Source: Bacteroidota bacterium
GTDB taxonomy: Bacteria; Bacteroidota; Ignavibacteria; SZUA-365
NCBI GenBank assembly: GCA_014860565.1
Contig: JACZJN010000109.1
Span: forward strand, 1-64,000
Direction of reading: 5' to 3'
Length of the DNA stretch: 64,000 nucleotides
The position numbers were made by a program, and so were the translations under genes. Below the pieces are notes generated by a model that saw only the letters and a program-made list of their open reading frames with translations, did not search any database and was not told the DNA's origin. Of the stretch, positions 21,146 through 38,407 are shown in pieces (position 1 is the stretch's first letter; each line of letters starts with the position of its first letter).

Positions 21146-21754
21146 TCAGGGGTAGCCGACTTCGCCCCGCAGCTGCTTGTAGAGCATTTCACGTGCGCGG
21201 AATATGTGCGCCTTCACCGTGCCAAGAGGGAGGTCGAGTTCCCCGGCTATTTCCTCGTAGCTCTTTTCCTCCTGATGACGCATGACGATCACAACGCGGT
21301 ATTTCTCGGGTAAGGCGTCGATAGCGCGCTGGATGGCGATGTTCTGCTGTGTGCGCAGAATTTCACCGTCTGGCGTGTGCGTGTTGTCCGGAATTTCATA
21401 CTGTGGAGAGCTTTCGTCCCCGCCCACCGGACGGTCGATGGAAAAGGTTTTCAGTTTGCGTTTGCGGAGATAGTCGATACAGTTGTTCGTCGCGATCTTG
21501 TAGAGCCAGGTCGAGAAGGCGAATTCATCGTTGAAGGACTCGAGGGAGTTGAAGGCTTTGATAAACGCCTCCTGGGTGAGGTCCTCGACGTCTCCCTGGT
21601 TGCCGACCATGCGCATGATGAGATGCGCTATCGCGTTGTGGTATTTCTTCATGAGGCGTTTGTAGGCCTCTTGCTTACCCGCGATGGCGTCGGCGATGAG
21701 TTCCCTGTCTTCGATGCGCGATTGCTCGCGCCGCTCTTCTGGTGTCTGGTACAT
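21146..21754 (-). CDS. ECF-type RNA polymerase sigma factor
   Basis: A 202-residue sigma-70 family protein of the ECF group. Region 2 spans about residues 35-105 (YHNAIAHLIMRMVGN, DVEDLTQEAFIKAF, FSTWLYKIATNNCIDYLRKR). A linker follows, then region 4 at about residues 135-195 (AIDALPEKYRVVIVMRH, LDLPLGTVKAHIFRARE). No adjacent membrane anti-sigma factor is visible, unlike many ECF loci. It would redirect transcription to a specific promoter set, possibly envelope genes. Transcribed in the same direction as, and downstream of, the electron-transfer cluster, but separated by a possible terminator. Confidence 0.92.
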   Translation of the reverse strand: MYQTPEERREQSRIEDRELIADAIAGKQEAYKRLMKKYHNAIAHLIMRMVGNQGDVEDLTQEAFIKAFNSLESFNDEFAFSTWLYKIATNNCIDYLRKRKLKTFSIDRPVGGDESSPQYEIPDNTHTPDGEILRTQQNIAIQRAIDALPEKYRVVIVMRHQEEKSYEEIAGELDLPLGTVKAHIFRAREMLYKQLRGEVGYP

Positions 21755-22956: not shown

Positions 22957-23020
22957 GCTGTTTCTTCGGATCAGTGTGAATGTGAGAACACGCCGCAGTG
23001 GATTGCATTCCAATATAATG

Positions 23021-23088: not shown

Positions 23089-23718
23089 TTACTTATTGTG
23101 GCAAGTGATGCAGAGCGCGCTCGCGGCATTGGATTTTACGAGGAGGCCGCCATGATTTCCGCTGTTGTGAACGTCATGACAGGAGCTGCACTCCAGCTTG
23201 TCGTGCGCTGTTCCAAAAAGCATGTCGTCATCGATATTCCCGGTCGTGCTCAGGCCGGAAAGCGTTGTCGTCGGATCATGAAGCTCACCATCCGCGGTTG
23301 CGAGTGCGGCGGTATAGGAAATCGAAATCGGATGGTCATTGGTGAGATCCGTTCCGAAATTCGTGCCGCCGGTGACGTAGGTGGTACCGCTCGTGCCGCC
23401 ATAGCTGTCAAGGGCCACGCTGCCATCATGACAACTCAGACACAGTTTGGATACGCCGGTCGGCTGGCCCATCGTTGCGTTCATCGTTCCACTGCTGTAG
23501 AGCGTGAACGTGCTTGATGTCGCCGCGTGATTCCACAACGGTGCATCGGACAGGGTTGTGCTCCCGTTATGCGGAGTATGACACGGAAGGCAGATTTCGC
23601 CACTGGTGTTCCACGTCAAGCTGTGGAAATCGTGGGCACTGCCAGTCAGCTGCGCATTTGCCGTGAAGGCCAGAAGCACAAAGACCACGGTAAGAAAGGA
23701 CAGAGAACGTATTTTCAT
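23089..23718 (-). CDS. Tetraheme c-type cytochrome, OmcE-like layout
   Basis: A 209-residue exported cytochrome. Signal peptide MKIRSLSFLTVVFVLLAFTA is cut near NAQ, and AGGAGT lies just before the ATG at 23718. Four CXXCH heme sites occur at about residues 43 (CLPCH), 93 (CLSCH), 177 (CSSCH) and 203 (CITCH). The order CHTPHN, PLWN, YSSG, LCLSCHDGS, NDHPISISY, CSSCHDVHN, LCITCH is the doubled-CXXCH arrangement, and the small size with four hemes recalls the filament-forming OmcE family. It shares this module with the N-terminal part of the decaheme protein at 30482-32380. Likely periplasmic or extracellular electron carrier; polymerisation is a hypothesis. Confidence 0.9.
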   Translation of the reverse strand: MKIRSLSFLTVVFVLLAFTANAQLTGSAHDFHSLTWNTSGEICLPCHTPHNGSTTLSDAPLWNHAATSSTFTLYSSGTMNATMGQPTGVSKLCLSCHDGSVALDSYGGTSGTTYVTGGTNFGTDLTNDHPISISYTAALATADGELHDPTTTLSGLSTTGNIDDDMLFGTAHDKLECSSCHDVHNSGNHGGLLVKSNAASALCITCHNK

Positions 23719-23791: not shown

Positions 23792-24181
23792 TCATGTGTC
23801 GTGGGCCTCGGTGAGCAGAGACGGCTGCAGTCCGGCCACATCGGCTATTAACTCGCTCAATTCAATCGGCTTTTCAAGCAGCATATCCACATTGAGAAGT
23901 CGCGCACGATCATGGATATTTTGCGTGAGGTGGGCGGAGATGAGGAACGCACGCATGTCGGATCTGATTTCTCTCGCCCTGGCGATCAGTTTCAGCCCGT
24001 CCATTTCCGGCATTCTGAAATCGGTAATTAAAAGATCGCATGTGTGACGCTTCAAATAGTTCAGTGCAGTTTCTGGCGTGTGGAAACCGCGCGCAACGTA
24101 ACCGGCGTCAGATAAGGCGGCCACGAGGGAATTGCAAAACAGCATTTCGTCGTCGACAATGATAACGGTGAAGAGGGACAT
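23792..24181 (-). CDS. Single-domain response regulator (receiver only)
   Basis: A 129-residue CheY-like receiver. Acidic pocket VDDE at residues 9-12, phosphoacceptor Asp54 in LLITDFRMPEMDG, conserved Ser/Thr region FLISAH and Lys104 in EKPIE. No output domain is present, so it probably acts as a phosphate shuttle or sink, or by protein contact. The start at 24181 is favoured over 24214 because a sigma-54-like element at 24220-24234 would place the transcript start at about 24208. It lies between the NtrC-type regulator and the tetraheme cytochrome, suggesting it belongs to the same signalling circuit. Confidence 0.85.
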   Translation of the reverse strand: MSLFTVIIVDDEMLFCNSLVAALSDAGYVARGFHTPETALNYLKRHTCDLLITDFRMPEMDGLKLIARAREIRSDMRAFLISAHLTQNIHDRARLLNVDMLLEKPIELSELIADVAGLQPSLLTEAHDT

Positions 24182-24219
24182 GCAGTGCTCGAGTATTCTT
24201 TTCTGGTATGACATACACT

Positions 24220-24234
24220 TCAACAATCGTGCCA
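24220..24234 (-). promoter_or_regulatory. Weak sigma-54-like promoter upstream of receiver gene
   Basis: Minus strand TGGCACGATTGTTGA matches the -24 box perfectly and has the correct 10-base spacing, but the -12 dinucleotide is GA instead of GC. It predicts a ~27-base leader for the receiver gene. Confidence 0.45.
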
Positions 24235-24372
24235 CGAGCACTGTCTTTTGCACATGCCTCAAACCATGGAAAATCACGTTCAAGGGCAGGATAAAAACGG
24301 ATATACGTGAGAGGGGTGGGTGATGAGGCGCAATTGTGATTCAAGCCGGGGGAAATGCCCCAGGTCTCGGTT

Positions 24373-25746
24373 TCACGAGCCCGAAATTCTCCATTTCTTC
24401 ATCCGATACCGAAGTGTGTCCCGTGATATTTTCAAGATTCTCGCTGCCTCGGACTGATTGTTGCCGGCACGTTCCAGAGCGGTCATGATGGCTCCTTTTT
24501 CCATATCCTCAAGCGATTCATCCTGTATCGTCTGGGTATCTATCCCGCTGTGATCAGGAGGATGAACATTGCTCTGGCGCACGTGTTCAATCGACGATAT
24601 ATCAATGATATCGCCGTCCTGCAGCAGGACCGCCCGCTCCAGCACGTTGCGCAGTTCGCGGACGTTCCCGGGCCAATCATGGTGCATGAAGAGCCGTCTG
24701 GTCCCTTCTGAAATCCCCTTGAATTGCTTGTTAAACACACCGTTAAATTCCTCGAGAAACATATCTGCAAGCAGGAGGGCATCCCTGCCCCGATCTCTGA
24801 GAGGGGGGACGTGAATCATGCCAACGTTGAGTCGATAGAAAAGGTCCTCCCTGAATTTCCCTTCTGCCGCCAGCTGTTGCAGCGGCTTGTTTGTGGCCGC
24901 GATAAAGCGGACGTCCACAGTGATTTCATGGCTGCCCCCGATGCGGAGAAAACTGCGATTTTCGAGGACGCGCAGGAGCGCCGCCTGGATCGAAGGAGAG
25001 ATGTTGCCTATCTCATCGAGAAAAACGGTCCCTTTATCCGCGAGTTCGAACACCCCTTTTCGCTGTGCGCGCGCATCCGTGAACGCGCCTTTTTCATGGC
25101 CGAATAATTCACTTTCCATCAGCGACTCTGGGATTGCTCCGCAGTTGATGGTCAGCATGTTTTCCGTTGCACGGGGGCTGAGCTGATGTATTGCACGCGC
25201 AACCAGTTCCTTTCCTGTTCCGCTTTCACCAATAATGAGCGCTGTTGTTGTGCCGGATTGTGCAATCCGGGACACCTGATCAAAGACGGCTCGGATTGCC
25301 GGATGTTGCCCCATCATGCCGTGAAAGCTGCGCTCGGTCACGTCTCTGTGTGTGATATACTCGACTTGTCGGCGGAATCGTGTCACGTTGAGCGTGCGCT
25401 CAATAATGACCTCCAATTCATCGAGATTCAACGGTTTGGTCACATAGTCGAACGCACCGAGTTTCATGGCCCGCACTGCGATATCCGAGCGGTCAACAGC
25501 AGTGACCATGATCACTGCGATGTGCGGCATTGAGTGCGAAAGTTGAGCAAGAAAATCCACCCCGGCGCCGTCCTCGAGAATCTGATCGAGGAGAATCAGA
25601 TCCGGTTCGAGTTCCTGAAGCACCGTGTCCGCAGCTGCAAGAGAGTCGGCCTGTTCCACCTGGAAACCCAGCTGCGTAAGGTGGGACGCGATGCTCCAAC
25701 GGAGCAGCTTTTCGTCATCCACAATGAGAATGCGTTCAGCTCTCAT
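24373..25746 (-). CDS. Sigma-54-dependent response regulator (NtrC family)
   Basis: A 457-residue activator with three domains. Receiver (residues 1-120: VDDE, Asp54 in LILLDQILEDG, Lys104). AAA+ sigma-54 interaction domain with Walker A GESGTGKE at 173-180, the sigma-54 contact loop GAFTDA at 220-225 (consensus GAFTGA) and Walker B VFLDEIG. C-terminal Fis-type HTH (NQSEAARILKISRDTLRYRM). It overlaps the kinase gene by 11 bp, marking a cognate pair. It is predicted to switch on the sigma-54-type promoters found upstream of the octaheme and barrel genes in this cluster. Confidence 0.94.
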   Translation of the reverse strand: MRAERILIVDDEKLLRWSIASHLTQLGFQVEQADSLAAADTVLQELEPDLILLDQILEDGAGVDFLAQLSHSMPHIAVIMVTAVDRSDIAVRAMKLGAFDYVTKPLNLDELEVIIERTLNVTRFRRQVEYITHRDVTERSFHGMMGQHPAIRAVFDQVSRIAQSGTTTALIIGESGTGKELVARAIHQLSPRATENMLTINCGAIPESLMESELFGHEKGAFTDARAQRKGVFELADKGTVFLDEIGNISPSIQAALLRVLENRSFLRIGGSHEITVDVRFIAATNKPLQQLAAEGKFREDLFYRLNVGMIHVPPLRDRGRDALLLADMFLEEFNGVFNKQFKGISEGTRRLFMHHDWPGNVRELRNVLERAVLLQDGDIIDISSIEHVRQSNVHPPDHSGIDTQTIQDESLEDMEKGAIMTALERAGNNQSEAARILKISRDTLRYRMKKWRISGS

Positions 25747-27232
25747 GAATCTTTACTCCGAGTGGCAGGTGTATCCAGACGCTGGTGCCTTCCTCCAGCG
25801 TACTCTCGATGCGCATGTTCCCACCATGCTGCTCGACAATCCGCTTCGAGATCGACATCCCGAGTCCTGTTCCTTTATGTTTCGTCGTGTAAAATGGTTT
25901 GAAAATCAGATGGAGTTCTTCATCCGGAATACCTTTGCCGGTGTCTCGTACCTCAAGCTGGACGTCGTTCTCCTCGACGCGGCAGCCGATGGAGACGGTC
26001 CCTCCCAACGGCATGGCTTGAATGGCGTTGATCGTGATGTTCCAGAGTAATTGCTGGATCAGTTTTCCATCCGCTGTGATTTCGATCGGATCCTCAAGAT
26101 TCAATTCTTCAATTGTAATGTGATGCTCACTGGCAACGGGTTGTAGAAGTGCGATCGTCCTGCGGATGACACGGACCAGATCCAGGCGGATGAACTGCGG
26201 CTGTCCCGGTCGGGCATAGCTGAGCAGGTCGTTGACGGCGTTGTTAATGCGACCCACCTGTTCAAGCATCTCGATGACGATTTCTCTGCGGGGATCCTCC
26301 AGAGGAAGATCACGACGGAAAATCTGAAGCGCGGCACTTAAACCCGCGACGGGATTTTTGATTTCGTGCGCGATGCTCGCAGCCATTTCTCCTGTCGTGG
26401 ACAATTGATCGGCACGGACAAGCTCGCCGTGATGTCTTTGAAGCAGTTGTTCATAGGCGGCGTTCAACTGCTTCACGAGTTGTGTAAACAACCTGGCGAG
26501 CTCGCCAATCTCATCCTGCTTATAATTGATTGGGCTGTGCTCTATCTCGAGCAGCACCCCATTGCGGAGACCATGGGCTCCTACCAAAACGCTCTTCATG
26601 CTTGAATTCAGTTTTCTCGTCGGCCGCGCGACAAGGAAATACATGACGATGAAGATGCTGATCGCCAGTCCTGCAAACGTGGCGAGGATGAGCAGTATGT
26701 TTCCGGTGCGGTGTATGGAGGAGATGGTCTGGAGATCCTGAAGCGGGATCGTGGCCATCAGATAGCCGATCGTTGTTTCACGCGGATCATGGCACCCATA
26801 ACATTCTGGTTTGTTCTCGAACGCAGTGATGACGTCCTGAAACGTGGAGTCGTTTCTCTCGAACCGCCGGGTCTTGACCGATGGATGTCTGGAGAGGGCT
26901 TTGAAGTCTGTCAGCGCGATGTGAACCATCCTGTCTGATTCGGAGGGGCTGACGAACACACGGCCGTCAGCGTCAAGCACTGCGACTGAGATCGCGGCGC
27001 CGGTGTGTTCAATGTTCCGCAGCGCATGCTCGATGCGATTTTCCTTTTTCACAAGCATCATGTGCTCGACGTTGGCTTTCCCGATTTCAATGACCGCAAG
27101 AGCTTTGGCATTCCCCACTTCCTCAAGCAGTTCGTGTCCAGTCCGATGGGCGGAGTAAAAAAGGATGAGGACAGCTGTAACCAGCAGTGCGGTGATGAAG
27201 ATCAGCAGTTTCGGAAGGAGCGACATTCTCAT
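25736..27232 (-). CDS. Sensor histidine kinase with a periplasmic heme-c motif
   Basis: A 498-residue membrane kinase. TM1 at residues ~8-27, periplasmic sensor ~28-176, TM2 ~178-200, HAMP, HisKA with His289 in SIAHEIKNPVAG, and HATPase boxes NITINAIQAM, DTGKGIP and GTGLGMSIS. The periplasmic domain has a single CYGCH at residues 144-148, followed by DPRETTIGYLMATIPL, a layout like heme-containing periplasmic PAS/Cache sensors. A covalent c-type heme would make it a redox or ligand sensor. Its start overlaps the NHL gene stop as ATGA and its stop overlaps the regulator gene. The ligand is not known. Confidence 0.93.
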   Translation of the reverse strand: MRMSLLPKLLIFITALLVTAVLILFYSAHRTGHELLEEVGNAKALAVIEIGKANVEHMMLVKKENRIEHALRNIEHTGAAISVAVLDADGRVFVSPSESDRMVHIALTDFKALSRHPSVKTRRFERNDSTFQDVITAFENKPECYGCHDPRETTIGYLMATIPLQDLQTISSIHRTGNILLILATFAGLAISIFIVMYFLVARPTRKLNSSMKSVLVGAHGLRNGVLLEIEHSPINYKQDEIGELARLFTQLVKQLNAAYEQLLQRHHGELVRADQLSTTGEMAASIAHEIKNPVAGLSAALQIFRRDLPLEDPRREIVIEMLEQVGRINNAVNDLLSYARPGQPQFIRLDLVRVIRRTIALLQPVASEHHITIEELNLEDPIEITADGKLIQQLLWNITINAIQAMPLGGTVSIGCRVEENDVQLEVRDTGKGIPDEELHLIFKPFYTTKHKGTGLGMSISKRIVEQHGGNMRIESTLEEGTSVWIHLPLGVKIHES

Positions 27233-28287
27233 GGCATCCCTCCCGTTGGGGGGGAGGTGATACTGAACACTGCGATACCACCGAGACCAGGGTCTGCGAC
27301 AAAAACCCGCTCGTGCTTCGCATCCATCGCCAGTCCGGAAGGGGAGACCAGTTCGTGCGCATAGGCACCCTGATACACGCCATACGGATCGAAGACGCGT
27401 ATGCAGCCCGTGCTGGCGTCGACGACATGGATGCGTCCCTGGTCGAGTGTCCCGGATGGGTCGAAGATACTGTCTTTTCGCATCTGGAATGCTGGTATTT
27501 TAAAAGTGTCCTGCCCGATCCCCATGGGCGCCATTCGTTCTCCTGGCACCGAGAAGTTTTCGATGAAGCGTCCACTGCAGGAGTACACTCCGATGTGTCC
27601 TGCAGCAAGGTCGCAAATCAGCAACCGACCATCGGCCGTCACGTGTGTGAATGTGGGGAAGCGCAGGGCGCGATCATTCGCCCGCTGTGGTATGCGCAGG
27701 ACAACTTCCCCTAATTCCCGCAGTGCCGGCAGCTCTTTCGCAGAAATCGCCAGCACTGCGTGGAGCACAACGTCTGTGACATACAACATATCGCCGTGTA
27801 TCGTGACCGCGTAGGGATGGATGCGCGTTACGCCATCGGGGAGGAATCCGAATACCTGCTTCACATTCCCTGTGCGCGGATTGACAAAGAGGATCTCATC
27901 GGAAGCGAAGTCTGTTGCATACAGTGCATCAGCGTCCGCTGCCACTGCCGTTATGGAGGCGTGTGCACCATCGCGAAGCGCGAAGCGCCGCAAGAGCCGC
28001 AGCGCTGCATCATATACTTCGATGCGGTCGCTCTCCCGGTATGACACGAACAGCTCGTTGTGCCAAAAACACAGGTCGCTGATCCTGAGTCCTTCCCGGC
28101 TTCCCTCGGGTATGAAGACAGACGAAATAGGCTTGTCGCGTCCTTGTTTCACCTGGGAAACAGACGAGTCACGGTCTCCCCGGAAGGCCGCTGTTGACAC
28201 GGAAACGATGCCGGCAGCTACGGAGAGTCCGAAGATGACGATCGCCAGGAGGGCATGTCGGGTCGGCCGTGAACGCTTATCTGCCAT
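27229..28287 (-). CDS. NHL-type beta-propeller protein with N-terminal membrane anchor
   Basis: A 352-residue protein. A hydrophobic segment at residues ~11-34 (ALLAIVIFGLSVAAGIVSVS) is a signal anchor or uncleaved signal, and there is no lipobox. Repeating blades include RISDLCFWHNELFVSYRESD, TAVAADADALYATDFASD, PYAVTIHGDMLYVTDVVLHA, THVTADGRLLICDLAAG and PSGLAMDAKHERVFVADPG. It is coupled on both sides: 11-bp overlap with ccsA and ATGA overlap with the kinase. Placement directly before the sensor kinase suggests it could be an accessory periplasmic sensor subunit, but no direct evidence exists. Confidence 0.78.
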   Translation of the reverse strand: MADKRSRPTRHALLAIVIFGLSVAAGIVSVSTAAFRGDRDSSVSQVKQGRDKPISSVFIPEGSREGLRISDLCFWHNELFVSYRESDRIEVYDAALRLLRRFALRDGAHASITAVAADADALYATDFASDEILFVNPRTGNVKQVFGFLPDGVTRIHPYAVTIHGDMLYVTDVVLHAVLAISAKELPALRELGEVVLRIPQRANDRALRFPTFTHVTADGRLLICDLAAGHIGVYSCSGRFIENFSVPGERMAPMGIGQDTFKIPAFQMRKDSIFDPSGTLDQGRIHVVDASTGCIRVFDPYGVYQGAYAHELVSPSGLAMDAKHERVFVADPGLGGIAVFSITSPPTGGMP

Positions 28288-29077
28288 ACCAGTGGATGGT
28301 TTGATGAAAGAGTGCTATCAGCCAGAGTGCGAATCGAGCAAGCAGCATGAGTACTATCGCGGAACTTGCAAGAACAGCGCCGTGAAGGGATTTCCATGCA
28401 AAGTATGCATGCAGATGCAGCGCCGCAAGCAGCCAGATCAAAAGACTCCAGATTTCGATGGGATCCCAACCCCAGTATCTGCCCCACGCATCATCTGCCC
28501 ATAGTGCTCCAGCGATAATCATACCGCCCCAGAACAGCACCGACGCAATCATTGCCCGAATACTCAATTCCTCTGTGACCGATACCTTTGCGGAAAACCT
28601 TTTGCCGCCCATACCGAGAAGTTGCATCGAGGAGGCGCTGGCCGCCGTGAGAAAGGCCGCCTGTCCGAGCGCTGCCGATGATGCATGGACATATAACCAC
28701 CCGCTCCGCAGTGACAGGGGAAGCGCGGCGAGGTTTGCCGGGGAAAGGCCTGCCCACAGGCAGAGGAATGAGGAATACAGGGCAGCGGTGGGGAGTATCA
28801 CGCGCCAGTGCGTGTTTCTGACGACTGCGAAAAACAGGAAAGACATGGTGAGCAGTGTGCTGAAGAGAATCGCATGCTGCCAGGCGACAGCGGGGATGTA
28901 TCCCGCGGCGTACCAGCGCCCACCAAAAGCCACGATCTGAAAAAGCAGAACCGTGGCCAACACGGGGAACAGATAATTCTTCCTCGATGCCACGCCGTTT
29001 TCGAAGAATGCGAGCACCGCCACGGCCGCGTAGAGCACGGCACTGCCGAGATCCAGAAACGAGAGCAGGGCATTCAT
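28277..29077 (-). CDS. ccsA: Cytochrome c biogenesis protein CcsA (ResC/CcmC-CcmF superfamily)
   Basis: A 266-residue polytopic membrane protein of the heme-handling family. About eight hydrophobic helices are visible. The tryptophan-rich WWD signature is present as WGRYWGWDPIEIWSLLIW near residue 214, and nearby histidines (WQHAIL, YVHASS, LHLHAYF) fit external heme ligands. With ResB it forms the System II cytochrome-c synthase, which exports heme and attaches it to CXXCH sites. Its ATG overlaps the resB stop by 4 bp and its stop overlaps the NHL gene by 11 bp. It is probably dedicated to the cytochromes of this cluster. Confidence 0.9.
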   Translation of the reverse strand: MNALLSFLDLGSAVLYAAVAVLAFFENGVASRKNYLFPVLATVLLFQIVAFGGRWYAAGYIPAVAWQHAILFSTLLTMSFLFFAVVRNTHWRVILPTAALYSSFLCLWAGLSPANLAALPLSLRSGWLYVHASSAALGQAAFLTAASASSMQLLGMGGKRFSAKVSVTEELSIRAMIASVLFWGGMIIAGALWADDAWGRYWGWDPIEIWSLLIWLLAALHLHAYFAWKSLHGAVLASSAIVLMLLARFALWLIALFHQTIHWYGR

Positions 29078-30477
29078 GAAGGATCTTCCCTGTGGACCGA
29101 CTTCCTCGGGGTGCGCACAGCTGGAGTTTCTGCCGCTTCCGTGAGCAGGACGTGGTGAAAATCTTCAAGCTCCCGGAAAAAGATTTCCGTGAAGTATTCC
29201 GCATTCCCCTCAACGATGCATGGTCCGTCGAGGCCGTGATCCCATCGGATCCTGATGTTCTTCCGGTAGAGGAATAGCCGGAGGACCAATCCGCAAAGGC
29301 CGATGAGCGCGCCGAACGCCACGATGCCGGGTCCGGTCGTATCCGCGATGTCGAGCTGTACCCACTCACGCATATCCGGAAAGGTCACCGTATAGTCGCG
29401 TACTTGTTGCGTCGCCCCCATGCCCAGCGTGGCGGACCAAGCATCCCTGCCGCGTTCTTCACAGCGGAGTTCGATGCGAGGAACGCTTTCGGTTTCGGTA
29501 CGTCCGACGCCGTGCAGGGCAAGAAAAAGACGAATGCCCCCGTTTTGCAGCTCGAGATAATCACGATGTTTGCCGTTCTTGAGTGCCGCGATCCTGATGA
29601 ACGCCGATACGAGCACGTTTCCTTCAGGGTCGACGATATGGATGTAAGGAGAAAAACCGTGACCTGGGCCGAGATGGACCTTTCGTCCCTGGAACGCGAG
29701 TCCCGCATTGATATGGACGGGCGCTCTTTGAACCACACCGTCACCGCTTGTCTCCACGATGGCGGCGGGGGTCCGCACATCGTCGATGGCATACAGACTG
29801 TCGTAGTCAACGAGACGCAGCAGCGGCGTATTCATAGCCGCCGAGGAGGCAGAGCCGCCGGTTCGCATTTCGCCGCCGCCGCCGCCCTCCTGCAAGAGGC
29901 GAAACGACTCGCCTTCCGTGAGGAGGATGGATTCGTTCTCCACTGACAGGGTTGAGTATGTGATCCCGGCTATGACGGTGAGGAGTCCGAAATGGAACAG
30001 GACGGAGCCGAATCCTCCCCAACTCCCTTTTTCCGCCGACACGCAGATGCTTTCCGCACTCCGGCTGAAACTCCATCGGTAACGGGATCTCCGCAATTCG
30101 CTCAGGACGCGCGCGATTCTCGGATCCTCTTCGTCCACTGCGAGTCGCACGCCCCGCACACGATCCGGTCGTGCCTTCATGAGTTGCGCCGTCCGCTGGA
30201 CGGTTGAAATCAGCAGAACCAGACTGAGCAGGGAAACGAATCCAATAACAACGGGAGATTCAAACATCGGGGCAAGACTGTTTCCGCTGGACTCAGCTTC
30301 GGCGCCAATGGTATTGTAACGCTGTTTCACGTCGTCCGGGATGGCGATGGATGAGGAGGGTACGAAAGAAGCGTACATCAGCAGCAGCACCGCCACCAGC
30401 AGGAGGGCGGCCGCGCCTTTCCTTTTGAGAAGCATGTGGATGCCGGCCTGGGCGATATGAAATACGCGGGAGATCAT
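29074..30477 (-). CDS. resB: ResB-like System II cytochrome c synthase subunit
   Basis: A 467-residue membrane protein. TM segments are seen near the N-terminus (AALLLVAVLLLMYASFV), at VVIGFVSLLSLVLLIS, at the conserved block KGSWGGFGSVLFHFGLLTVIAG (with a His likely to bind heme) and near the C-terminus (GIVAFGALIGLCGLVLRLFLY). A large periplasmic domain lies between the last two. The ATG at 30477 is preferred because it begins 4 bases after the cytochrome stop; a further upstream start would overlap that gene by 62 bases. Works with the adjacent CcsA to attach heme to apocytochromes in the periplasm. Confidence 0.88.
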   Translation of the reverse strand: MISRVFHIAQAGIHMLLKRKGAAALLLVAVLLLMYASFVPSSSIAIPDDVKQRYNTIGAEAESSGNSLAPMFESPVVIGFVSLLSLVLLISTVQRTAQLMKARPDRVRGVRLAVDEEDPRIARVLSELRRSRYRWSFSRSAESICVSAEKGSWGGFGSVLFHFGLLTVIAGITYSTLSVENESILLTEGESFRLLQEGGGGGEMRTGGSASSAAMNTPLLRLVDYDSLYAIDDVRTPAAIVETSGDGVVQRAPVHINAGLAFQGRKVHLGPGHGFSPYIHIVDPEGNVLVSAFIRIAALKNGKHRDYLELQNGGIRLFLALHGVGRTETESVPRIELRCEERGRDAWSATLGMGATQQVRDYTVTFPDMREWVQLDIADTTGPGIVAFGALIGLCGLVLRLFLYRKNIRIRWDHGLDGPCIVEGNAEYFTEIFFRELEDFHHVLLTEAAETPAVRTPRKSVHREDPS

Positions 30478-30481
30478 GGCA

Positions 30482-32380
30482 TTAATACGTACGTCCGCTT
30501 CCTCCCGCGTGTATGTCGCAGCCGCGATTGTTATCCAGTTCATCGGTCCAGCAACGCCGTGCGGAGAAATTCACATCAGAAACATATCCGGAGAGAAATC
30601 GGTCCGCCATGACGCGTGTGCCCGCGGTAAGGGATGTGCCGCCTTCACGCCAGTAGTACTTTTTATTCATGCCGTGGACAAAGAGCTTCTCGCTGTTGCC
30701 GCCCGTCGTGAGGGTCGTACCGGCGTGATCCCACATGTGGCATGCGAAGCAGCCCTCGGTGACATGATGGTCATCCTTGTCATGCCTGTCGAAATTGCTT
30801 CCGTTACTCCCCGTGACATAGGAGGAGGATTTATGGCAGACAAGACACAAGGGTGTCATGCTGGATGCGGTGCTCCGAATCGTCGCAATCAGCATTTTAT
30901 CCACATTCGATGTCCCGGGCCCCGAGTTGTTGAGATTGGAACCGTGCGGCCCTTCCGGAGACGAGGGACTGTCGCTTCCATGACAGTCGCTGCACCACAC
31001 GCGTTTGTTCGCACCCCACGGTGCATTGGTGGTCGTTGTTGAGACATATGTATTTGTCGTGCCTCCAGGGACGATCCCGTGGTAGGAGGCGTAGCCAGGG
31101 TTTATTTCCTTCGCAAGATCTCTTTTACCGGCCGGGAGGGTGACATAGCCAGAGTGGCATTTGAGGCAGACCTGATATTCGTCAACCGGAGTATTCACCC
31201 GTGTATAGGTGGTCGGCGTACTGAGAACCACGTCATTATTCGTCGTCGAGGTCGTTGGTGCTGGCCATGTGGGTTCCACTCCCCAGACACCTTTCAACGT
31301 CGCCGAGATCCGCAGATTCCCACGGCCATTTTTCCCTACGCCTTTCTGCGCCTGATGCGGGTTGTGGCAGTCCGTGCATTCGGCGTGCCGGTTTGAGGAC
31401 CCGAGTTCGGACGCACTTTCACCCCCTGCCTTATTCTTGTGAACGCCGTTGATGCTGTTCGTCGGATGACTCCAGGTTTTTGCAAGCTCGGTTTCGATTC
31501 GTCTTGCGGGGGGAGCGTTCTGACCGTGGCAGCCGTTCCCCGTTCCATCATAACAGGATTGCTGTTCGACCCCCTTCAGGTTGTACGGACTCCCTCCTCC
31601 GGAATGGGATTTATGGCAAGCCCGACACGACCATTCTCCTATCGACGTAGCAGAACTTCCTGGAGGAGTGTAAGACATGTTCGAAGTTCGATGCACGGAG
31701 ATGGAATAATCTGTTTTTACGTGACAGAACGTGCATAGTCCGGCATTGGCGTTCGACATCTGCAGGAAGGGGGCGAAGGTATTGTTGTGAGGATTATGAC
31801 ATGTGACGCATTCAACTTTGCCTGATGAGGTGTTTGGATCGAGCAGCACGGTCGAGGTCCAGGGCCATGAGCGCGATACGAGCTCCGGATCGGAATTCGT
31901 ATCATACCCAATACCGACGGGGTGATCGTCCGACAGGGACGCACCGATGTCTCCGGCGCTCCCGGTCGGCATAGTGGTGACGGAATTCGCCATTGTGATC
32001 GTCCCGGCGAGCGAAGCGCCGGGGAGGTTGAGTACTGTGCCGATGGCGATTGTTCCATCGTGGCAGCTCAGGCAGAGTTTCGATTTGCTCCCGGGCTGAA
32101 CTGTCGAAGGATAGGCAGGGGAGAGCGACGTGAGATAGTCGCTCGAATAGAGTGTGTATGACGTCGTGGGCTGGCTGCGATTCCACAATTGTGCAGAGAC
32201 CGCTGCATGATGCGGAGTATGGCAGAAAACACAGACCTGCGGTTCTGTTTGCGCATGAATGGTGGTGCCGCTGTTGAATGCCAGATTGTGCTTGGTGTTG
32301 ACGATCGAATTCTGCGCGATGAGTGATCCGCCCAGGGCCCAGATCAGGATGCCGATGCTGCAAACGGTTTTCTTGGTCAT
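30482..32380 (-). CDS. Decaheme c-type cytochrome with an additional C-X7-C-H motif
   Basis: A 632-residue exported multiheme cytochrome with a signal peptide ending near SLIAQ. Ten CXXCH sites start at about residues 50, 103, 191, 216, 252, 335, 405, 463, 512 and 544. An eleventh possible site is CYDGTGNGCH at 276-285, where seven residues separate the cysteines. Residues ~45-220 repeat the layout of the 209-residue tetraheme protein (CHTPHH, LWN, YTLYSS, LCLSCHDGT, DDHPVGIGY). It overlaps the preceding NHL gene as ATGA and is followed 4 bases later by resB. Probably the periplasmic or extracellular part of an outer-membrane electron conduit. Confidence 0.92.
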   Translation of the reverse strand: MTKKTVCSIGILIWALGGSLIAQNSIVNTKHNLAFNSGTTIHAQTEPQVCVFCHTPHHAAVSAQLWNRSQPTTSYTLYSSDYLTSLSPAYPSTVQPGSKSKLCLSCHDGTIAIGTVLNLPGASLAGTITMANSVTTMPTGSAGDIGASLSDDHPVGIGYDTNSDPELVSRSWPWTSTVLLDPNTSSGKVECVTCHNPHNNTFAPFLQMSNANAGLCTFCHVKTDYSISVHRTSNMSYTPPGSSATSIGEWSCRACHKSHSGGGSPYNLKGVEQQSCYDGTGNGCHGQNAPPARRIETELAKTWSHPTNSINGVHKNKAGGESASELGSSNRHAECTDCHNPHQAQKGVGKNGRGNLRISATLKGVWGVEPTWPAPTTSTTNNDVVLSTPTTYTRVNTPVDEYQVCLKCHSGYVTLPAGKRDLAKEINPGYASYHGIVPGGTTNTYVSTTTTNAPWGANKRVWCSDCHGSDSPSSPEGPHGSNLNNSGPGTSNVDKMLIATIRSTASSMTPLCLVCHKSSSYVTGSNGSNFDRHDKDDHHVTEGCFACHMWDHAGTTLTTGGNSEKLFVHGMNKKYYWREGGTSLTAGTRVMADRFLSGYVSDVNFSARRCWTDELDNNRGCDIHAGGSGRTY

Positions 32381-33390
32381 TGTGCTTTCGCCAGGTATTG
32401 AAACATCTGGACACGTTTGTTCAAAGTGTCGACGACGTAGATGACATTGTCAGCGTCTATCCATATTCCCCCCGGCGACTGGAAGCTGCCAGGGTCGCTT
32501 CCACTGCCTCCGACGACGAGAAGGAGCCGTCCTCCGCTGTCGAAAATCTGGAATGCATCGAAGAGCGCATCCACCACATAAATATTCGTATCGCTGTCGA
32601 GGGCAATGCCTTTCGGGGCCGCAAACGTGCCCTGTACATTTCCGAGCGTGCCGAACGTTCTGATTGACGCGCCGGCAGTATCCAACACCTGAATCCGGTG
32701 ATTCAACACATCGACTACGTACAGATTCCGTTTGAAGGTGAGAAAAAGAGGGTAGTTGAACTGCCCTGGCTCTCCGCCGCGTTGACCGAATCCGCTCATG
32801 CGGACGCCCGCGAGGTCGAAGATTCCTATCACGTGCTCGCCTGTGTCCGTGATATATATTCTGCTCTCCCGGCTTGCGATGCCGGTCGGTCTTGACATTC
32901 CGGTGGGAAAGGAAAACTCCGGATCCAGATCTTCGTCGAACACGACGACTTCCTTTCGCAGCGCATCCGTAACGTAAATGCGACCATCAGCGAAGGCGAT
33001 CCCGACCGGGGTGCCCAACAGACCATCGGGACCTTCCGTGATTCTCATATATTCCTGTTCTTCGCGGTCGAACATATGAATGCAACTCCCGCCGGGATCA
33101 GAGACGAAAATCCTGCCTCCGTCGTCCACCGCGATCCCCACCGGCTGGATGAAAAAATCGCTCTCCGTTTCGCTCCCGATGATCGCATCCCAGAGCTTTT
33201 CAAGGAAGGAACGATCCGCACCGATATCCTGTCCGCGCGCGATCGCACCCAGATAACGGATGCGTGCGGTGTCGGGCGCTGCGGGCCACACGCGTGATTC
33301 GGCATCCTGTGCGTGCGATTGCGCGGCGCCGAACAGGAGCAGAATCGCCCAGAGGCACAGGCGCCGGGAGGTGCTACTGGAATGAAACAT
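32377..33390 (-). CDS. NHL-repeat beta-propeller protein, exported
   Basis: A 337-residue protein. The ATG at 33390 gives a signal peptide ending GAAQSHAQ and overlaps the barrel gene by 17 bp; a start at 33465 would lack a usable signal. Six NHL blades are readable, such as QPVGIAVDDGGRIFVSDPGG, TPVGIAFADGRIYVTDALRK, RPTGIASRESRIYITDTGEH, APKGIALDSDTNIYVVDALF and SPGGIWIDADNVIYVVDTL. It lies between the barrel and the decaheme cytochrome. It may cap or dock to one of these, by analogy with NHL proteins found beside outer-surface cytochromes in metal reducers. Confidence 0.83.
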   Translation of the reverse strand: MFHSSSTSRRLCLWAILLLFGAAQSHAQDAESRVWPAAPDTARIRYLGAIARGQDIGADRSFLEKLWDAIIGSETESDFFIQPVGIAVDDGGRIFVSDPGGSCIHMFDREEQEYMRITEGPDGLLGTPVGIAFADGRIYVTDALRKEVVVFDEDLDPEFSFPTGMSRPTGIASRESRIYITDTGEHVIGIFDLAGVRMSGFGQRGGEPGQFNYPLFLTFKRNLYVVDVLNHRIQVLDTAGASIRTFGTLGNVQGTFAAPKGIALDSDTNIYVVDALFDAFQIFDSGGRLLLVVGGSGSDPGSFQSPGGIWIDADNVIYVVDTLNKRVQMFQYLAKAQ

Positions 33391-35083
33391 CGATAGGCCT
33401 GCGGATTTCGAGTTGGATGCGGCTGCGATCATATTGTCCGATGATGTCACGAACATACCGGGCAACGAAGCTCAATGCATAAAGCCGATAGAGTAATTCT
33501 GTTTCGATATGAGCGACTGTCTGCCGGGCGTAAGTCGAATACGTCTGATCCGCGGAAAATGATAGCGATAGCCGCGGGATCAGTTCTGATTGGGAAATCC
33601 CGACCATGTAGCGCGTGGATCTGTCGTCGTACCACGAGGAGGACGTCCGTAAGGTATAATTCGCCATCACTGACGTGTTGGCCCCGACATTCCAGGTGAT
33701 GCTGTTTTCCCACATGGTGTTCGCGAAGCGCGGCAGCTGTTGTGACGAGAGATTGCGTGTGTCGGTGCGGTTGAAGCGGGAGTTGAGGTTGCATCTCCAG
33801 AGGATGTCCCACCGCGCCTCGGTCAGGAATGAATTGCCCCATGCGTCGCCGAGAACCGGCTGCCGTTGCAGGTTGAAATCGTCGCGCACGGTCAGGGTGA
33901 AGGTTTGAAACAGGTTGCCGACAACCCCGACACCCACGCGGCTTGAATGGACGAAACTGCGATTCCGGTTATAATTGCGTTCGAGTCCGAAATCGGAACC
34001 GATGACCATGGTAACACGCGTCGCCGAAAAATTGCGGTCATACTGGGATTCGACCGAGAGCTTTTCCTCGTCCCCGCGAAGTACATTGCTGCCATATTCC
34101 TGGGAATTCATCTGGAAAGACCCGCCCGCGCGGATGATCAGGTAGTCGAGCGCACGGATGAACGTCATGCTCGAAATATTATCGGTGGTATTTCGCTGCA
34201 GGGTGGCGCTTCTGTAGCTGTTCACAAGATGGGAGAAGCGAAAGCGATGCTGAACCGCCGCGTCTCGAAGATCGTCAGCCAGGACCTCCAGGGCGGTGTT
34301 TCTCGCCTCGTTACGGATCGCGTACAGACCGTTTGCATTCACAACGAACTGAGGGGCCAGGCTCGACTGCCCGTGCAGCCGGAACTCATGATTCGTCAGG
34401 TGCTGGGAGCGCACCCGGTCGTCGATGTCGTAGCCCTGATAGACGAAATTGTATTGCGAGCTCTCGCTGTTGGCATTCGAGAATTTAAGGTCGTAATGGG
34501 TGGTGTGCTGATCGACGGGGTACGCAAGCTGCTCACCCACCTGTGTCTCCTGGTTGAGCCCGGCGGAAATCTGAGGATAGATCGTATTACCTGGAATATA
34601 GACTTCACCACCGTAGCCCAGGATGTCCACGACACCGGGATTCGTCAACCCACGAGAGATAAGCAGCGGAGACTCTGCACGGGATTCGATGCGGTTTTTC
34701 TTACTCGACAGCGTCATACGGAATCCATTGTTGGGAAACAGCACCGCGTTCGCATTCCAGAACCCCCAGTCCCTTCGATGAACACTGCTGCTCGCGTTGT
34801 ACATGGAAACCTTTGACGAGTAATCAAGGAAGGATGACGTCAGGTCGAATGTCAGAAATCGCGGATCGGCTGCGTACCCGCGGACATTGAGGAAGTACTG
34901 CTGCATCAGCAACTGTTCGTCATTGAAGCTCCCACTCTGTGAATACCGATCACGCTGGGCACTGAGACAAAGTTCACCTGACAGGTGAGTCACTTGTGCA
35001 TGCGAGATTGTCGGACACAGAACTGCGAGGACGATACCGATGCAGAAGAAGGTCGTCAGTATGGTGCTTATTTTATTCGACAT
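33374..35083 (-). CDS. Large outer-membrane beta-barrel, candidate conduit porin
   Basis: A 569-residue exported protein with a signal peptide ending PTISHAQ. The rest is almost wholly amphipathic strands with aromatic girdles and short turns (YFLNVRGYAADPRFLTFDLT, YNFVYQGYDIDDRV, RYMVGISQSELIPRLSLSF), which suits a barrel of about 20 or more strands. No heme motif. Length and its place between NHL/decaheme and octaheme genes match the porin of a porin-cytochrome conduit, as in Geobacter OmbB or Shewanella MtrB, but no sequence relation to either can be claimed. A sigma-54-type promoter is positioned 21 bases before the ATG, leaving a very short leader. Confidence 0.75.
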   Translation of the reverse strand: MSNKISTILTTFFCIGIVLAVLCPTISHAQVTHLSGELCLSAQRDRYSQSGSFNDEQLLMQQYFLNVRGYAADPRFLTFDLTSSFLDYSSKVSMYNASSSVHRRDWGFWNANAVLFPNNGFRMTLSSKKNRIESRAESPLLISRGLTNPGVVDILGYGGEVYIPGNTIYPQISAGLNQETQVGEQLAYPVDQHTTHYDLKFSNANSESSQYNFVYQGYDIDDRVRSQHLTNHEFRLHGQSSLAPQFVVNANGLYAIRNEARNTALEVLADDLRDAAVQHRFRFSHLVNSYRSATLQRNTTDNISSMTFIRALDYLIIRAGGSFQMNSQEYGSNVLRGDEEKLSVESQYDRNFSATRVTMVIGSDFGLERNYNRNRSFVHSSRVGVGVVGNLFQTFTLTVRDDFNLQRQPVLGDAWGNSFLTEARWDILWRCNLNSRFNRTDTRNLSSQQLPRFANTMWENSITWNVGANTSVMANYTLRTSSSWYDDRSTRYMVGISQSELIPRLSLSFSADQTYSTYARQTVAHIETELLYRLYALSFVARYVRDIIGQYDRSRIQLEIRRPIDVSFQ

Positions 35084-35103
35084 AATCAACTGCGCGCATA
35101 ACG

Positions 35104-35118
35104 GCAAAAGCCGTGCCG
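35104..35118 (-). promoter_or_regulatory. Sigma-54 (-24/-12) promoter upstream of the barrel gene
   Basis: Minus strand CGGCACGGCTTTTGC: GG and GC are separated by exactly 10 bases. It agrees at 13 of 15 positions with the element upstream of the octaheme gene. Predicted start about 9 bases before the ATG. The element also contains a short hairpin (ACGGC/GCCGT), so it is less certain than its twin. A further stem (GCCGTATCC/GGATACGGC) lies just upstream. Confidence 0.6.
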
Positions 35119-35184
35119 TATCCCGGTGGTGGATACGGCCTCGACGGTCGAAGCTGTGCTGCTTCGGACAACCAGGCATGGGGG

Positions 35185-35207
35185 ATATAACCCAGTCTGG
35201 GTGATAT
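35185..35207. promoter_or_regulatory. Dyad symmetry, possible enhancer site for the NtrC-type regulator
   Basis: ACCCAG-T-CTGGGT is flanked on each side by one unpaired base and ATAT, making a near-perfect 23-base dyad about 70-90 bases upstream of the barrel -24 element. The one-base centre argues against an RNA hairpin and for a dimeric protein site. Confidence 0.45.
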
Positions 35208-35253
35208 GACGCGTGCATTTCTCACGGCCGAAGCATTACACTCGTTCACGACA

Positions 35254-36135
35254 TTACTCGTCAATCACCGGAGCATCCAGTTGCTCCAGATCGGGGAGGC
35301 CAGGTGGCGTTTCGTTTGTTCGTTCCGTGCTGGCGGTACTCAGGATATCACTCGAAAACGCGATGCCGGCGAGAATGCGGCGGTCATGGGTGCCCGAAGG
35401 AGTTGCGGCACGCTGGTAGCCGAGCGAAACCTGCAGGTGTTCGAAAAGAAATATGCGAAGTCCCGCGGCGAGACTGAACGACGGGGATTGACCTGAATGA
35501 GGTTGCCATTCCGCTTCAATCCCGACCAGAGTCTGGTCAAACACACTTTTGGTCAACGCTGCTCCAATCTGTCCTGACACCGGCAGAAGTGCCTCTTTCA
35601 CGGCTCCGCCATACATCGAAAATCCAATGCCGATGGGTAAGGATTTTGCCGCCATCACGCGTATTCCTCCCCCGATTCCGCCCTGCTGTTCCTTCCCATC
35701 CTGCCACCGGGAAAGGGACGTGCCGTAAGCCTCGACGCCGAGTGCGATGTCGAGATGGACGCCAAGGAAGATGCGCACGCCGGCAAGGACACGATCTATC
35801 TCAGCCTGGTTCTCATCCTTCCCGTTGAGGAAACTTGCAAATGCCTGGGAATACCGAGCGATGCCATAGCCCATCGCGAATGGCAGACGGAAGCCGTGCG
35901 GGGCGTTCAACGAGGCGAATGCCATCGATCCCACGACCAGGTGTCCGGCGCGCGCGACCGCTGGGGAGGGAGAGGTGAACAGGCCGGGAGTCCCATCCAG
36001 ATTCAGTCCGACCATAGTGCGGCCCGCCTCGACGTCGGTTTCCTCCTGGGCCAGCAGCGCCGTGCATTGCAGCAAGGATACGGTCATCACAAGCGTGATG
36101 TACCGCCGCAGGAGTGAAATGTATGTTCGCTTCAT
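35254..36135 (-). CDS. Outer-membrane protein of unknown family in the cytochrome cluster
   Basis: A 293-residue exported protein with a signal peptide (TLVMTVSLLQCTALLAQE). The ATG at 36135 overlaps the octaheme stop by one base (TGATG); an ATG two codons upstream is also possible. The mature part is rich in Gly and alternating strands (AGHLVVGSMAFASLNAPHGF, RVFVGV-like LAGVRIFLGVHLDIALGVEA, SFSLAAGLRIFLFEHLQVSLG), resembling a PorV-like or small transport barrel, followed by an acidic Pro-rich tail. No heme site. Coupling to the octaheme gene suggests a structural role in the same complex. Family not recognised. Confidence 0.68.
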   Translation of the reverse strand: MKRTYISLLRRYITLVMTVSLLQCTALLAQEETDVEAGRTMVGLNLDGTPGLFTSPSPAVARAGHLVVGSMAFASLNAPHGFRLPFAMGYGIARYSQAFASFLNGKDENQAEIDRVLAGVRIFLGVHLDIALGVEAYGTSLSRWQDGKEQQGGIGGGIRVMAAKSLPIGIGFSMYGGAVKEALLPVSGQIGAALTKSVFDQTLVGIEAEWQPHSGQSPSFSLAAGLRIFLFEHLQVSLGYQRAATPSGTHDRRILAGIAFSSDILSTASTERTNETPPGLPDLEQLDAPVIDE

Positions 36136-37397
36136 CACCATATTTTGTGGCAGGCACGGCACATTTTCGTAAAGGGCTCCCGAAGCAGCTTTGCCTCATT
36201 GGAACCATGGGGATCATGGCAGCTCGCACATGAGAATGGCCTTCCCTCGACGAGTGGGTCCGCGGCGCCGGCCAGCGGATGATTGTTGACGGGGTGGGGA
36301 GTGGCGGCAGCGTCCTCATGACACGATGCACAGAGAGGCTTGACATCACCCTTGAGCAGCTTTCTTCGCGACGAGCCATGTGCGTCATGGCAGTTGATGC
36401 AGCTCATCTGCGCCGCTGCATGCGGGGATTGCATTTCGGTGCGCTCCTGGATGTCCGGGTGGCATTGCATGCAGAATTCAGCGTCATATGTCTGGTCGGT
36501 ATATAAGCTGTAGCGCGGCGAGGAGTTTGCATCGTGGCACATAAGGCATTCCCACTCCGCTGCAGGTGAATGAGAAGAAGTCTGCGAGACCAGCGGCGTA
36601 TGGCACGCGGAGCAGATTTCCTTCACTTCACCCTGATTCTGAATGGTCGCATCATCAGGAACCATGGTATGACAGCCTCCGCAAAACTCCTCCTGTTCCG
36701 GAGAGTGCAGGGGTTCGGCGGTGAACCCGGCATCAGATTCACTCGCTGCGTCGCTTTGCATGAAGAACTGCAGCGAGTCCAGGTGAAGCACATTTCCCTC
36801 CGGATCCAGTGCGCGGAGGTGAAACACGTTTCGGCCGGGTTCCAGCGCAGGAGAAAACGCGAATTTGTTCATGTACCGATCACGGTATGCCTCGCTCCCC
36901 ACATCCAGCACAGGACCGCTCCAGATTTGAAGGTCCACCTCCACCGCGAAAACGGATTTCTGGTAGGCAAAGGCGTAGACCGCTTTGAAAAAATCAGATT
37001 CCCAGAACGCCTTCAAGTCGATGGGAGCTTCCAATGTCGCGGTAAGCGACCTGGATTCCTGCTTCCCGTTTGAAAGGGTGAAGGCGAAGGCGATGGATCT
37101 CAAAAAGCAATGTGCGGGAAATAAATCGCGTATTGATTTTGCAAAGACATCCTTCTGCGTCATACGCTGCAGCGGCAGGGAGGAGTGCTGGTCCAATTCG
37201 CGCAGAAGCTGAACAGATGCGACATTCTCCTCGAACGCACCGACAACACCCCCCATCCCTGTGCGAACAATGACCGCGTTCCCCTTCGGATACCAGAGTT
37301 CTATCGCGGATTCCTCATCGTCGAAGTGAGCGGGATCGGGCAGGAGCAGGGTTGTCAGAAGGAAAGCGGTTGTGAATTTCAGGATCAAATGCACCAT
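36135..37397 (-). CDS. Octaheme c-type cytochrome with N-terminal beta-rich domain
   Basis: A 420-residue protein with a signal peptide over residues ~1-20. Residues ~25-225 form a heme-free beta-rich domain of unknown type. Eight CXXCH sites follow at about 239, 262, 284, 309, 333, 356, 390 and 413 (CGGCH, CSACH, CLMCH, CMQCH, CINCH, CASCH, CASCH, CRACH), in the doubled-CXXCH pattern with CHDAHGS and CHDPHGS. The heme chain reaches the C-terminus (CRACHKIW). It is the first gene of the cluster, behind the best sigma-54-type promoter. Probably the periplasmic partner of the barrel, receiving electrons from the inner membrane (inference). Confidence 0.92.
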   Translation of the reverse strand: MVHLILKFTTAFLLTTLLLPDPAHFDDEESAIELWYPKGNAVIVRTGMGGVVGAFEENVASVQLLRELDQHSSLPLQRMTQKDVFAKSIRDLFPAHCFLRSIAFAFTLSNGKQESRSLTATLEAPIDLKAFWESDFFKAVYAFAYQKSVFAVEVDLQIWSGPVLDVGSEAYRDRYMNKFAFSPALEPGRNVFHLRALDPEGNVLHLDSLQFFMQSDAASESDAGFTAEPLHSPEQEEFCGGCHTMVPDDATIQNQGEVKEICSACHTPLVSQTSSHSPAAEWECLMCHDANSSPRYSLYTDQTYDAEFCMQCHPDIQERTEMQSPHAAAQMSCINCHDAHGSSRRKLLKGDVKPLCASCHEDAAATPHPVNNHPLAGAADPLVEGRPFSCASCHDPHGSNEAKLLREPFTKMCRACHKIW

Positions 37398-37460
37398 AAC
37401 CGGCTGCCTTTCAAGTCAATGTCAGGAATGTGGGGCTTTCTGAATCTAGAGATTATTTAT

Positions 37461-37475
37461 GCAATAACCGTGCCG
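37461..37475 (-). promoter_or_regulatory. Sigma-54 (-24/-12) promoter of the cytochrome cluster
   Basis: Minus strand CGGCACGGTTATTGC followed by A: the -24 GGCAC and -12 TTGCA are both present, with the strict GG-N10-GC spacing. It predicts a transcript start near 37449 and a leader of about 50 bases before the octaheme ATG at 37397, where AAAGG lies upstream of the start. An NtrC-type activator is encoded in the same cluster. Confidence 0.8.
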
Positions 37476-37597
37476 TAATGCATCTTCCTCGCACACTGGA
37501 ATAGATTAACAGCCTGGTTTCAGCCCATGCTTGGAGAAGTACCCGATTATGGATACTTTGCATAAGGTATGAATCTGTCTTGTATTCAGTGGGTATT

Positions 37598-38407
37598 ATG
37601 GCATCAGAAATAAAGATCCTTTTCATCGGCGACATCGTCGGGAACGCCGGTCTCAATGCAGTGCGCCTTTTCCTTCCGTCGCTGCGCGAAAAACACGATA
37701 TCGCCTGTGTTATCGCCAACGGCGAAAATACGATGGAAGGCAAGAGTATCAGCGAACAGCAGTATCGTGAACTGCAGGAACTGGGCGTTCAGGTCGTCAC
37801 GTCGGGAAATCACATATGGGAGAAGTGGCACATCCAGAAACTTCTGAGCGCTGAGCAGAATCTGCTGCGCCCCGCCAACTATCCGCGCGACAATGCTGGC
37901 CGCGGCTTCACCGTTGTTCCACTCGGAGCGGCAGGCAGCATCGGCGTGTTGAATCTGCAGGGCCGCACGTTCATGAACACCATCGACTGTCCCTTCCGCA
38001 CGGCGGAATGGGTGGTCGAGCGATTGCGGGAACAGACACCGATTATCTTTGTGGATTTCCACGCCGAAGCGACCGCTGAGAAGGTTGCGATGGGATGGTT
38101 CCTCGACGGCCGCGTCAGCGCGGTGGTTGGCACGCACACACACATACAGACCGCGGATGCGAAAATACTTCCCGGCGGCACCGCCTATCTCACTGACGTG
38201 GGGATGACCGGGCCGTACGACTCCGTCGTCGGCATGCGCAAGGACATCGCCCTCCGGCGCTTCATCAAACAGACGCCGCACAAGTTTGAAATGGCGACCG
38301 ACGACGTGCATCTCTCTGCTGTGATGATCACGGTGGAAGTGACGACGGGGAAGGCCGTTTCCATTCAACCCATGACTCTCCCGGAGTTCAATCGTCATGC
38401 CGAATGA
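37598..38407 (+). CDS. YmdB-family metallophosphoesterase (TIGR00282 type)
   Basis: A 269-residue calcineurin-like dinuclear metal phosphoesterase. Metal-binding motifs are FIGDIVGNAG, ANGENTMEGKSIS, TSGNHIWEK, FVDFHAEAT and GTHTHIQTADA, all conserved in the YmdB family, whose Bacillus member hydrolyses 2',3'-cyclic nucleotides and affects global gene expression. The ATG at 37598 is chosen so that the first metal motif is close to the N-terminus; an alternative at 37580 adds six residues. It overlaps folD by 11 bp, a common neighbour pair. The divergent upstream region is shared with the cytochrome cluster promoter. Confidence 0.9.
   Translation: MASEIKILFIGDIVGNAGLNAVRLFLPSLREKHDIACVIANGENTMEGKSISEQQYRELQELGVQVVTSGNHIWEKWHIQKLLSAEQNLLRPANYPRDNAGRGFTVVPLGAAGSIGVLNLQGRTFMNTIDCPFRTAEWVVERLREQTPIIFVDFHAEATAEKVAMGWFLDGRVSAVVGTHTHIQTADAKILPGGTAYLTDVGMTGPYDSVVGMRKDIALRRFIKQTPHKFEMATDDVHLSAVMITVEVTTGKAVSIQPMTLPEFNRHAE

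Follow-up and report, generated by a model that had tools for sequence, protein, structure and literature searches.

Candidate sigma-54 promoters and a putative heme-sensor kinase–NtrC pair in an Ignavibacteria cytochrome cluster

The 64,000-nucleotide stretch of DNA analysed here (the window) carries a minus-strand cytochrome cluster that, at a probability of about two in three, is run by three sigma-54 promoters (37460, 35103 and 24219, all minus), with the cluster's own histidine kinase and NtrC-type regulator acting at 35103 and 24219. At 37460, where the cluster has its strongest core, no enhancer for this regulator can be recognised.

Genes of the cytochrome cluster

Ten minus-strand genes, nearly all of them overlapping, run from 37397 to 24373; a single sizeable gap, 170 nt long, separates gene 2 from gene 3. 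Gene 1 (36135–37397) encodes a secreted octaheme cytochrome with eight CXXCH motifs in doubled-CXXCH domains, and gene 2 (35254–36162) a small outer-membrane β-barrel protein (PF13505, weak). Gene 3 (33374–35083, with ATG 35083 as its likely start) encodes a large outer-membrane β-barrel of about 28 strands. It has no Pfam match. The hits of its low-confidence structural model were chiefly to LptD, TonB receptors and ushers, so we rejected an identification as MtrB by fold and name it only a large β-barrel. It is followed by genes for an NHL-repeat β-propeller protein (gene 4, 32377–33465), a decaheme cytochrome (gene 5, 30482–32380), ResB-type and CcsA/CcsB-type cytochrome c assembly proteins (gene 6, 29074–30543; gene 7, 28277–29077) and a β-propeller-like protein (gene 8, 27229–28287). 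The last two genes of the run encode a membrane sensor histidine kinase whose periplasmic part has a single c-type heme motif, CYGCH (gene 9, 25736–27232), and, as the sequence-only reading had noticed, an NtrC-type response regulator (gene 10, 24373–25746). Beyond a gap of 191 nt lie, on the same strand, a stand-alone response-regulator receiver (gene 11, 23792–24181), a tetraheme OmcE-like cytochrome (gene 12, 23089–23718, likely start ATG 23718) and another NHL-repeat β-propeller protein (gene 13, 21883–23013). An ECF-type sigma-70 family factor is encoded after the cluster on the same strand (21146–21754, minus).

OmcE has four hemes (PMC12307469). Residues 9–222 of the decaheme cytochrome (7tfs, E = 6.8e-28) and the tetraheme cytochrome (7tfs, E = 2.7e-26) match nearly the whole length of OmcE, and gene 12 likewise has four hemes, whereas the product of gene 5 is much extended and carries ten heme motifs. 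Porin–cytochrome clusters described in the same bacterial group, the Ignavibacteria, also have multiheme cytochromes adjoining outer-membrane barrels (PMC7399161, in part); they differ from the present cluster with its Pfam-unmatched large barrel, and the accessible portion of that paper does not treat regulation.

A sigma-54 core ahead of the octaheme gene

The sequence-only reading had placed a sigma-54 core with GG-N10-GC spacing at 37461–37475, about 50 bases before the first gene of the cluster. The minus strand does hold such a core, CGGCACGGTTATTGCA (37475–37460), one base longer than had been indicated. Its GG (37474–37473) and GC (37462–37461) are separated by exactly 10 bases, its flanks follow the consensus and it is one mismatch from TGGCACGNNNNTTGCW. 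The predicted start, 37449, lies 52 nt before the ATG of gene 1, in good agreement with the earlier estimate. We scanned the window with a sigma-54 matrix whose frequencies, set by hand, centre on a published consensus that PMC2725144 quotes, mrNrYTGGCACG-N4-TTGCWNNw, so that its scores are relative, and the core at 37460 has the highest score in the 64 kb (17.0 of 19.4). The genome also has rpoN, as a single intact ORF (E = 1.1e-57), together with about 17 strong sigma-54 activator ORFs. The same promoter type is known from the RpoN regulon of Geobacter sulfurreducens, which is reported to include cytochromes of extracellular electron transfer and, in the accessible part of PMC2725144, has the reported consensus TTGGCACGGTTTTTGCT, very close to CGGCACGGTTATTGCA.

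A match of this kind could arise by chance, with gene 1 served by an ordinary housekeeping-type promoter, and several observations bear on this reading. Shuffled windows are expected to hold 0.107 sites of score 17.0 per 64 kb, and within the 202-nt intergenic region (37398–37599), taking its sense strand only, that score is reached with P = 0.0003, which argues against chance for this position and strand. Mismatch counting over the whole window gives no excess (8 sites with at most two mismatches, against 11 expected) and was set aside as proof of the site, not being significant alone. Across the genome, searched by pattern, a reversed pattern has 9 matches against 16 for the real sigma-54 pattern, so some of the latter are chance matches. 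A weak sigma-70-like match (37573–37546, 9 of 12) does lie upstream of gene 1 on the same strand, but it is a single match where chance alone would give 0.8.

Relatives bear on the same question. A homologue search for the octaheme gene in 391 genomes of the class found it in 20, and the 450 nt before the match could be scanned in 19 of these. The mean best sigma-54 score there is 10.1, against 4.0 in shuffled upstream sets (s.d. 0.68; highest of 300, 5.9), and in most families the sigma-54-like site ends 16–45 nt before a plausible start codon of the octaheme gene. The exceptions are G140 and three genomes of the window's own family, G001, G002 and G006; in G002 and G006 other cluster genes stand upstream of the octaheme gene. 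Of the relatives with a comparable layout G001 is the nearest, and its octaheme gene has no sigma-54 site upstream, so 37460 is not conserved nearby, a point in favour of a chance match. Against it stand the recurrence of sigma-54-like sites at the octaheme gene in other families and the probability given above, and we consider chance a decidedly improbable explanation. The promoter at 37460 is probably sigma-54 dependent.

Elsewhere in the genome, perfect TGGCACGNNNNTTGCA occurs five times, where by our own arithmetic equal base frequencies would give about 0.6, and at least four of the five copies stand shortly upstream of a convincing ORF. Among the genes downstream of these sites (loci L003, L010, L012, L013 and L014) are some for secreted proteins (L010, L012) and for two proteases, Lon-type at L003 and trypsin/HtrA-like at L014, a hint that the sigma-54 regulon may have a branch for envelope stress. 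Sigma-54-like cores with TTGTC/TTGTG or TTGAT/TTGAA in place of TTGC at −12 were also seen, always at the same genes (L037:14012, L038:5179, L040:4856, the L069 upstream region and window 24219–24234); perhaps this lineage tolerates variation in its −12 element.

A predicted palindromic enhancer and two candidate internal promoters

A palindrome, TGRGTGAWWTNACYCA, recurs upstream of the receiver genes of relatives and is the likely enhancer of the cluster's NtrC-type activator. About five genomes first drew attention to it, and genomes outside that set proved to have it too; with at most one arm mismatch, 32 such dyads occur in the upstream regions of relatives, against 6.4 expected. We built an enhancer matrix from relatives only, leaving out the window sequence, and then ran it over the window. 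The three best scores in the 64 kb are at 35179–35194 (21.9), 35198–35213 (14.5) and 24347–24362 (14.1), each upstream of a sigma-54-like core.

The first two predicted sites, read on the minus strand, are CGCGTCATATCACCCA (35198–35213), 95 nt from the −24 element of a core at 35103–35118, and TGGGTTATATCCCCCA (35179–35194), 76 nt from it; the latter is one of two exact matches to the enhancer pattern in the genome. The core itself, CGGCACGGCTTTTGCC (minus, score 13.3), precedes the large barrel gene and has GCC at its −12 end. The third site, TGGGGCATTTCCCCCG (24347–24362, minus-strand reading), is 128 nt from the −24 of a core before the receiver gene, TGGCACGATTGTTGAA (24219–24234, minus, score 13.0), in which GA replaces GC at −12; a weaker enhancer-like site, TGCGCCTCATCACCCA (24317–24332, same reading, score 7.2), is 98 nt from it. 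Both cores are weaker than that at 37460, and both stand with an enhancer at a conserved spacing. The palindrome begins 74–128 nt upstream of −24: at the octaheme gene of other families the spacings are 74 and 93–94 nt, close to the 76 and 95 nt in the window, and at the receiver gene they are 88–116 nt in other families and 120–124 nt in the window's family, where same-family relatives have 120 and 124 nt and the window 128 nt.

The window holds three enhancer–sigma-54 pairs, a number reached neither in 150 shuffled windows, which had no pair at all, nor with any of 300 permuted palindromic matrices. Elsewhere in the genome, strong sigma-54 sites come with no convincing cluster-type enhancer (best 8.4), and among own-genome enhancer matches with at most one mismatch that were examined as loci, a good sigma-54 partner is found only at the cluster's own. 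In related cytochrome clusters of other phyla, enhancer–sigma-54 pairs are only scattered.

Both internal pairs are kept in G001, before the large barrel (L033:3594 and 3692) and before the receiver (L189). In G006 the barrel gene is preceded by the enhancer pair, though the corresponding sigma-54 core is poor (4.1). The 35103 core lies inside inverted repeats and would leave a leader of only about 9 nt to the barrel ATG. On the minus strand, 35100–35140 holds a hairpin (CCGTATCC...GGATACGG) followed directly by a second inverted repeat (ACGGCTTTTGCCGT), with the sigma-54-like core within; these repeats may serve as a terminator or attenuator separating gene 2 from gene 3, or the core may be fortuitous on their account. 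In G001 the predicted start (L033:3692–3719) falls almost on the ATG of the barrel gene, and this and the window arrangement (35083–35118) suggest that the barrel message may be near-leaderless.

By contrast with these two sites, the region 60–180 nt upstream of 37460 has no enhancer for the cluster activator above background. The best match, TCGGGTACTTCTCCAA (37531–37546), scores 1.3, a value that a shuffled region of equal size reaches half the time (P = 0.51). This absence counts against control by the cluster activator, not against the core itself. Chance inverted repeats were also considered as a different enhancer for 37460 and rejected, since its upstream region holds no perfect dyad whose arms reach 6 or more.

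The sequence-only reading is thus borne out in part. The well-placed core, rpoN, the cytochrome cluster downstream and the NtrC-type regulator in the same gene run support it, but the proposal that 37460 alone drives the entire cluster, or is its autogenous switch, is not supported: two further internal sigma-54 sites come with predicted enhancers, and the predicted binding sites of the regulator are present at those sites and absent at 37460. One could still suppose that the whole cluster is run mainly from 37460 as an autogenous promoter, with the cluster's own NtrC-type protein acting through the weak site at 37531–37546 or by looping from 35179–35213, about 2.3 kb downstream. Enhancers of NtrC-type activators can act at a distance. 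Such a promoter would have the strongest core of the cluster, genes 1–2 and 3–10 share one strand with a single 170-nt gap, the weak match lies 71 nt upstream, near the 74–76 nt seen elsewhere, and G087 has a sigma-54 site and a moderate enhancer (9.9) before its octaheme gene, with kinase and NtrC genes after it. But the weak match is no better than chance and the strong enhancers sit instead at 35179–35213 and 24347. Because the enhancer is elsewhere, we rejected this as the main reading and regard it as unlikely. The likely autogenous promoter is instead 35103, since the inferred enhancers sit there and it heads the operon that ends in the kinase and NtrC genes. G087 also has, in the same cluster, a second related kinase beside another set of barrel, propeller and cytochrome genes (L032:963–5281), apparently a duplicated module.

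Alternatively, 37460 may be the sigma-54 promoter of a different activator, placing genes 1–2 under another signal than genes 3–13. With about 17 activator ORFs in the genome there are candidates, and 37460 has no cluster-type enhancer. Two relatives, G135 and G248, bear on this as natural controls, a small set (n = 2). Both keep the octaheme gene and lack the kinase; a dyad search of their upstream regions found no enhancer, and their octaheme genes have sigma-54-like sites scoring 12.3 and 8.1. The remaining genomes checked with an omc-type octaheme gene all have the kinase. The joint absence of enhancer and kinase ties the palindrome to the kinase–regulator pair, and the same two genomes indicate that an octaheme gene can keep a sigma-54-like site without the palindrome, as at 37460. 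However, most f20 relatives have a cluster-type enhancer at the octaheme gene, and no alternative enhancer motif was identified at 37460. We see separate control of genes 1–2 as possible, at clearly less than even odds. In G165, which has the kinase, the stretches searched hold no strong enhancer. Two genomes of the same order, G078 (L187) and G096 (L188), have the heme kinase and NtrC genes with no octaheme-gene match reported.

The putative heme sensor, its regulator and the predicted control

The periplasmic part of the kinase has one CXXCH, which together with H174 is invariant in seven homologues. Its predicted structure (pLDDT 80) best matches the heme-c sensor GSU0935 (3b42, E = 3.5e-6), followed by WalK and other Cache-type sensors, with low TM-scores. 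Like the heme-c Cache sensors (DUF3365/Tll0287; GSU0935, GSU0582), it has a periplasmic CXXCH before the last strand and is fused to a signalling module, and its fold may be Cache-like. It differs from them in matching the Pfam models of the family weakly, below the curated cut-offs: PF21563 gives 18.0 bits with the window kinase (cut-off 27), and Tll0287 matches only homologues, at 14.5–16.3 bits (cut-off 24.1). Signal-fused heme-c Cache sensors are reported to bind NO and to behave as NO rather than oxygen sensors (PMC12889525, preprint), and the present kinase might respond to NO or to the periplasmic redox state.

The regulator has a receiver, an AAA+ sigma-54 interaction domain and a Fis-type HTH. 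In the window protein and its homologues the sigma-54 loop reads GAFTDA instead of GAFTGA, a form listed among the variants expected to stay active (PMC4641369). The NtrC-type regulons of Desulfovibrio vulgaris (PMC4641369) have in common with this system a kinase, an AAA+ regulator, a sigma-54 promoter and a palindromic enhancer; they differ in targets and enhancer sequence, and the sensor here carries a c-type heme. G. sulfurreducens belongs to a different phylum and, in the part of PMC2725144 available, the activator and enhancer of its cytochrome genes are not tied to an in-cluster heme kinase. We found no earlier description of such a regulon for OmcE-type clusters and, with the terms tried, no paper on sigma-54 and Ignavibacteria cytochromes.

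In the three-promoter reading that we prefer, which adds predicted binding, activation, signal and transcription starts to the observed sequences, positions, conservation, rpoN and co-occurrence, the membrane histidine kinase would sense redox state or a heme ligand through its covalently bound periplasmic heme and would phosphorylate the NtrC-type regulator encoded alongside. Once bound to the paired palindromes, TGRGTGAWWTNACYCA, that lie before 35103 and 24219, the regulator would open the sigma-54 promoters there. Output from 35103 would raise expression of the operon of barrel, propeller, decaheme, assembly, kinase and NtrC genes, giving positive feedback, and output from 24219 would raise that of the receiver, OmcE-like cytochrome and propeller. 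Transcription from 37460, in this reading a true sigma-54 promoter, would cover the octaheme cytochrome and small barrel genes and might continue into the rest; the promoter might be served by another activator of the genome, by a degenerate enhancer or by looping from the enhancer near 35.2 kb.

Outside Geobacter and Shewanella, little is known of what leads a bacterium to build cytochrome filaments and outer-membrane electron conduits. In the present case the sequence by itself yields a heme-sensor kinase, a regulator, a predicted enhancer, named promoters and two natural kinase-less controls, so that control of OmcE-type clusters becomes testable by ordinary DNA-binding and reporter assays. 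The predicted control system recurs in several families across a class of mostly uncultured bacteria of the Bacteroidota group. More tentatively, and at slightly under an even chance, a dedicated c-heme kinase and NtrC-type activator, acting with a paired palindromic enhancer and sigma-54, may gate OmcE-type wires and an outer-membrane conduit throughout this class, with the octaheme gene in the present genome split off to a second sigma-54 input.
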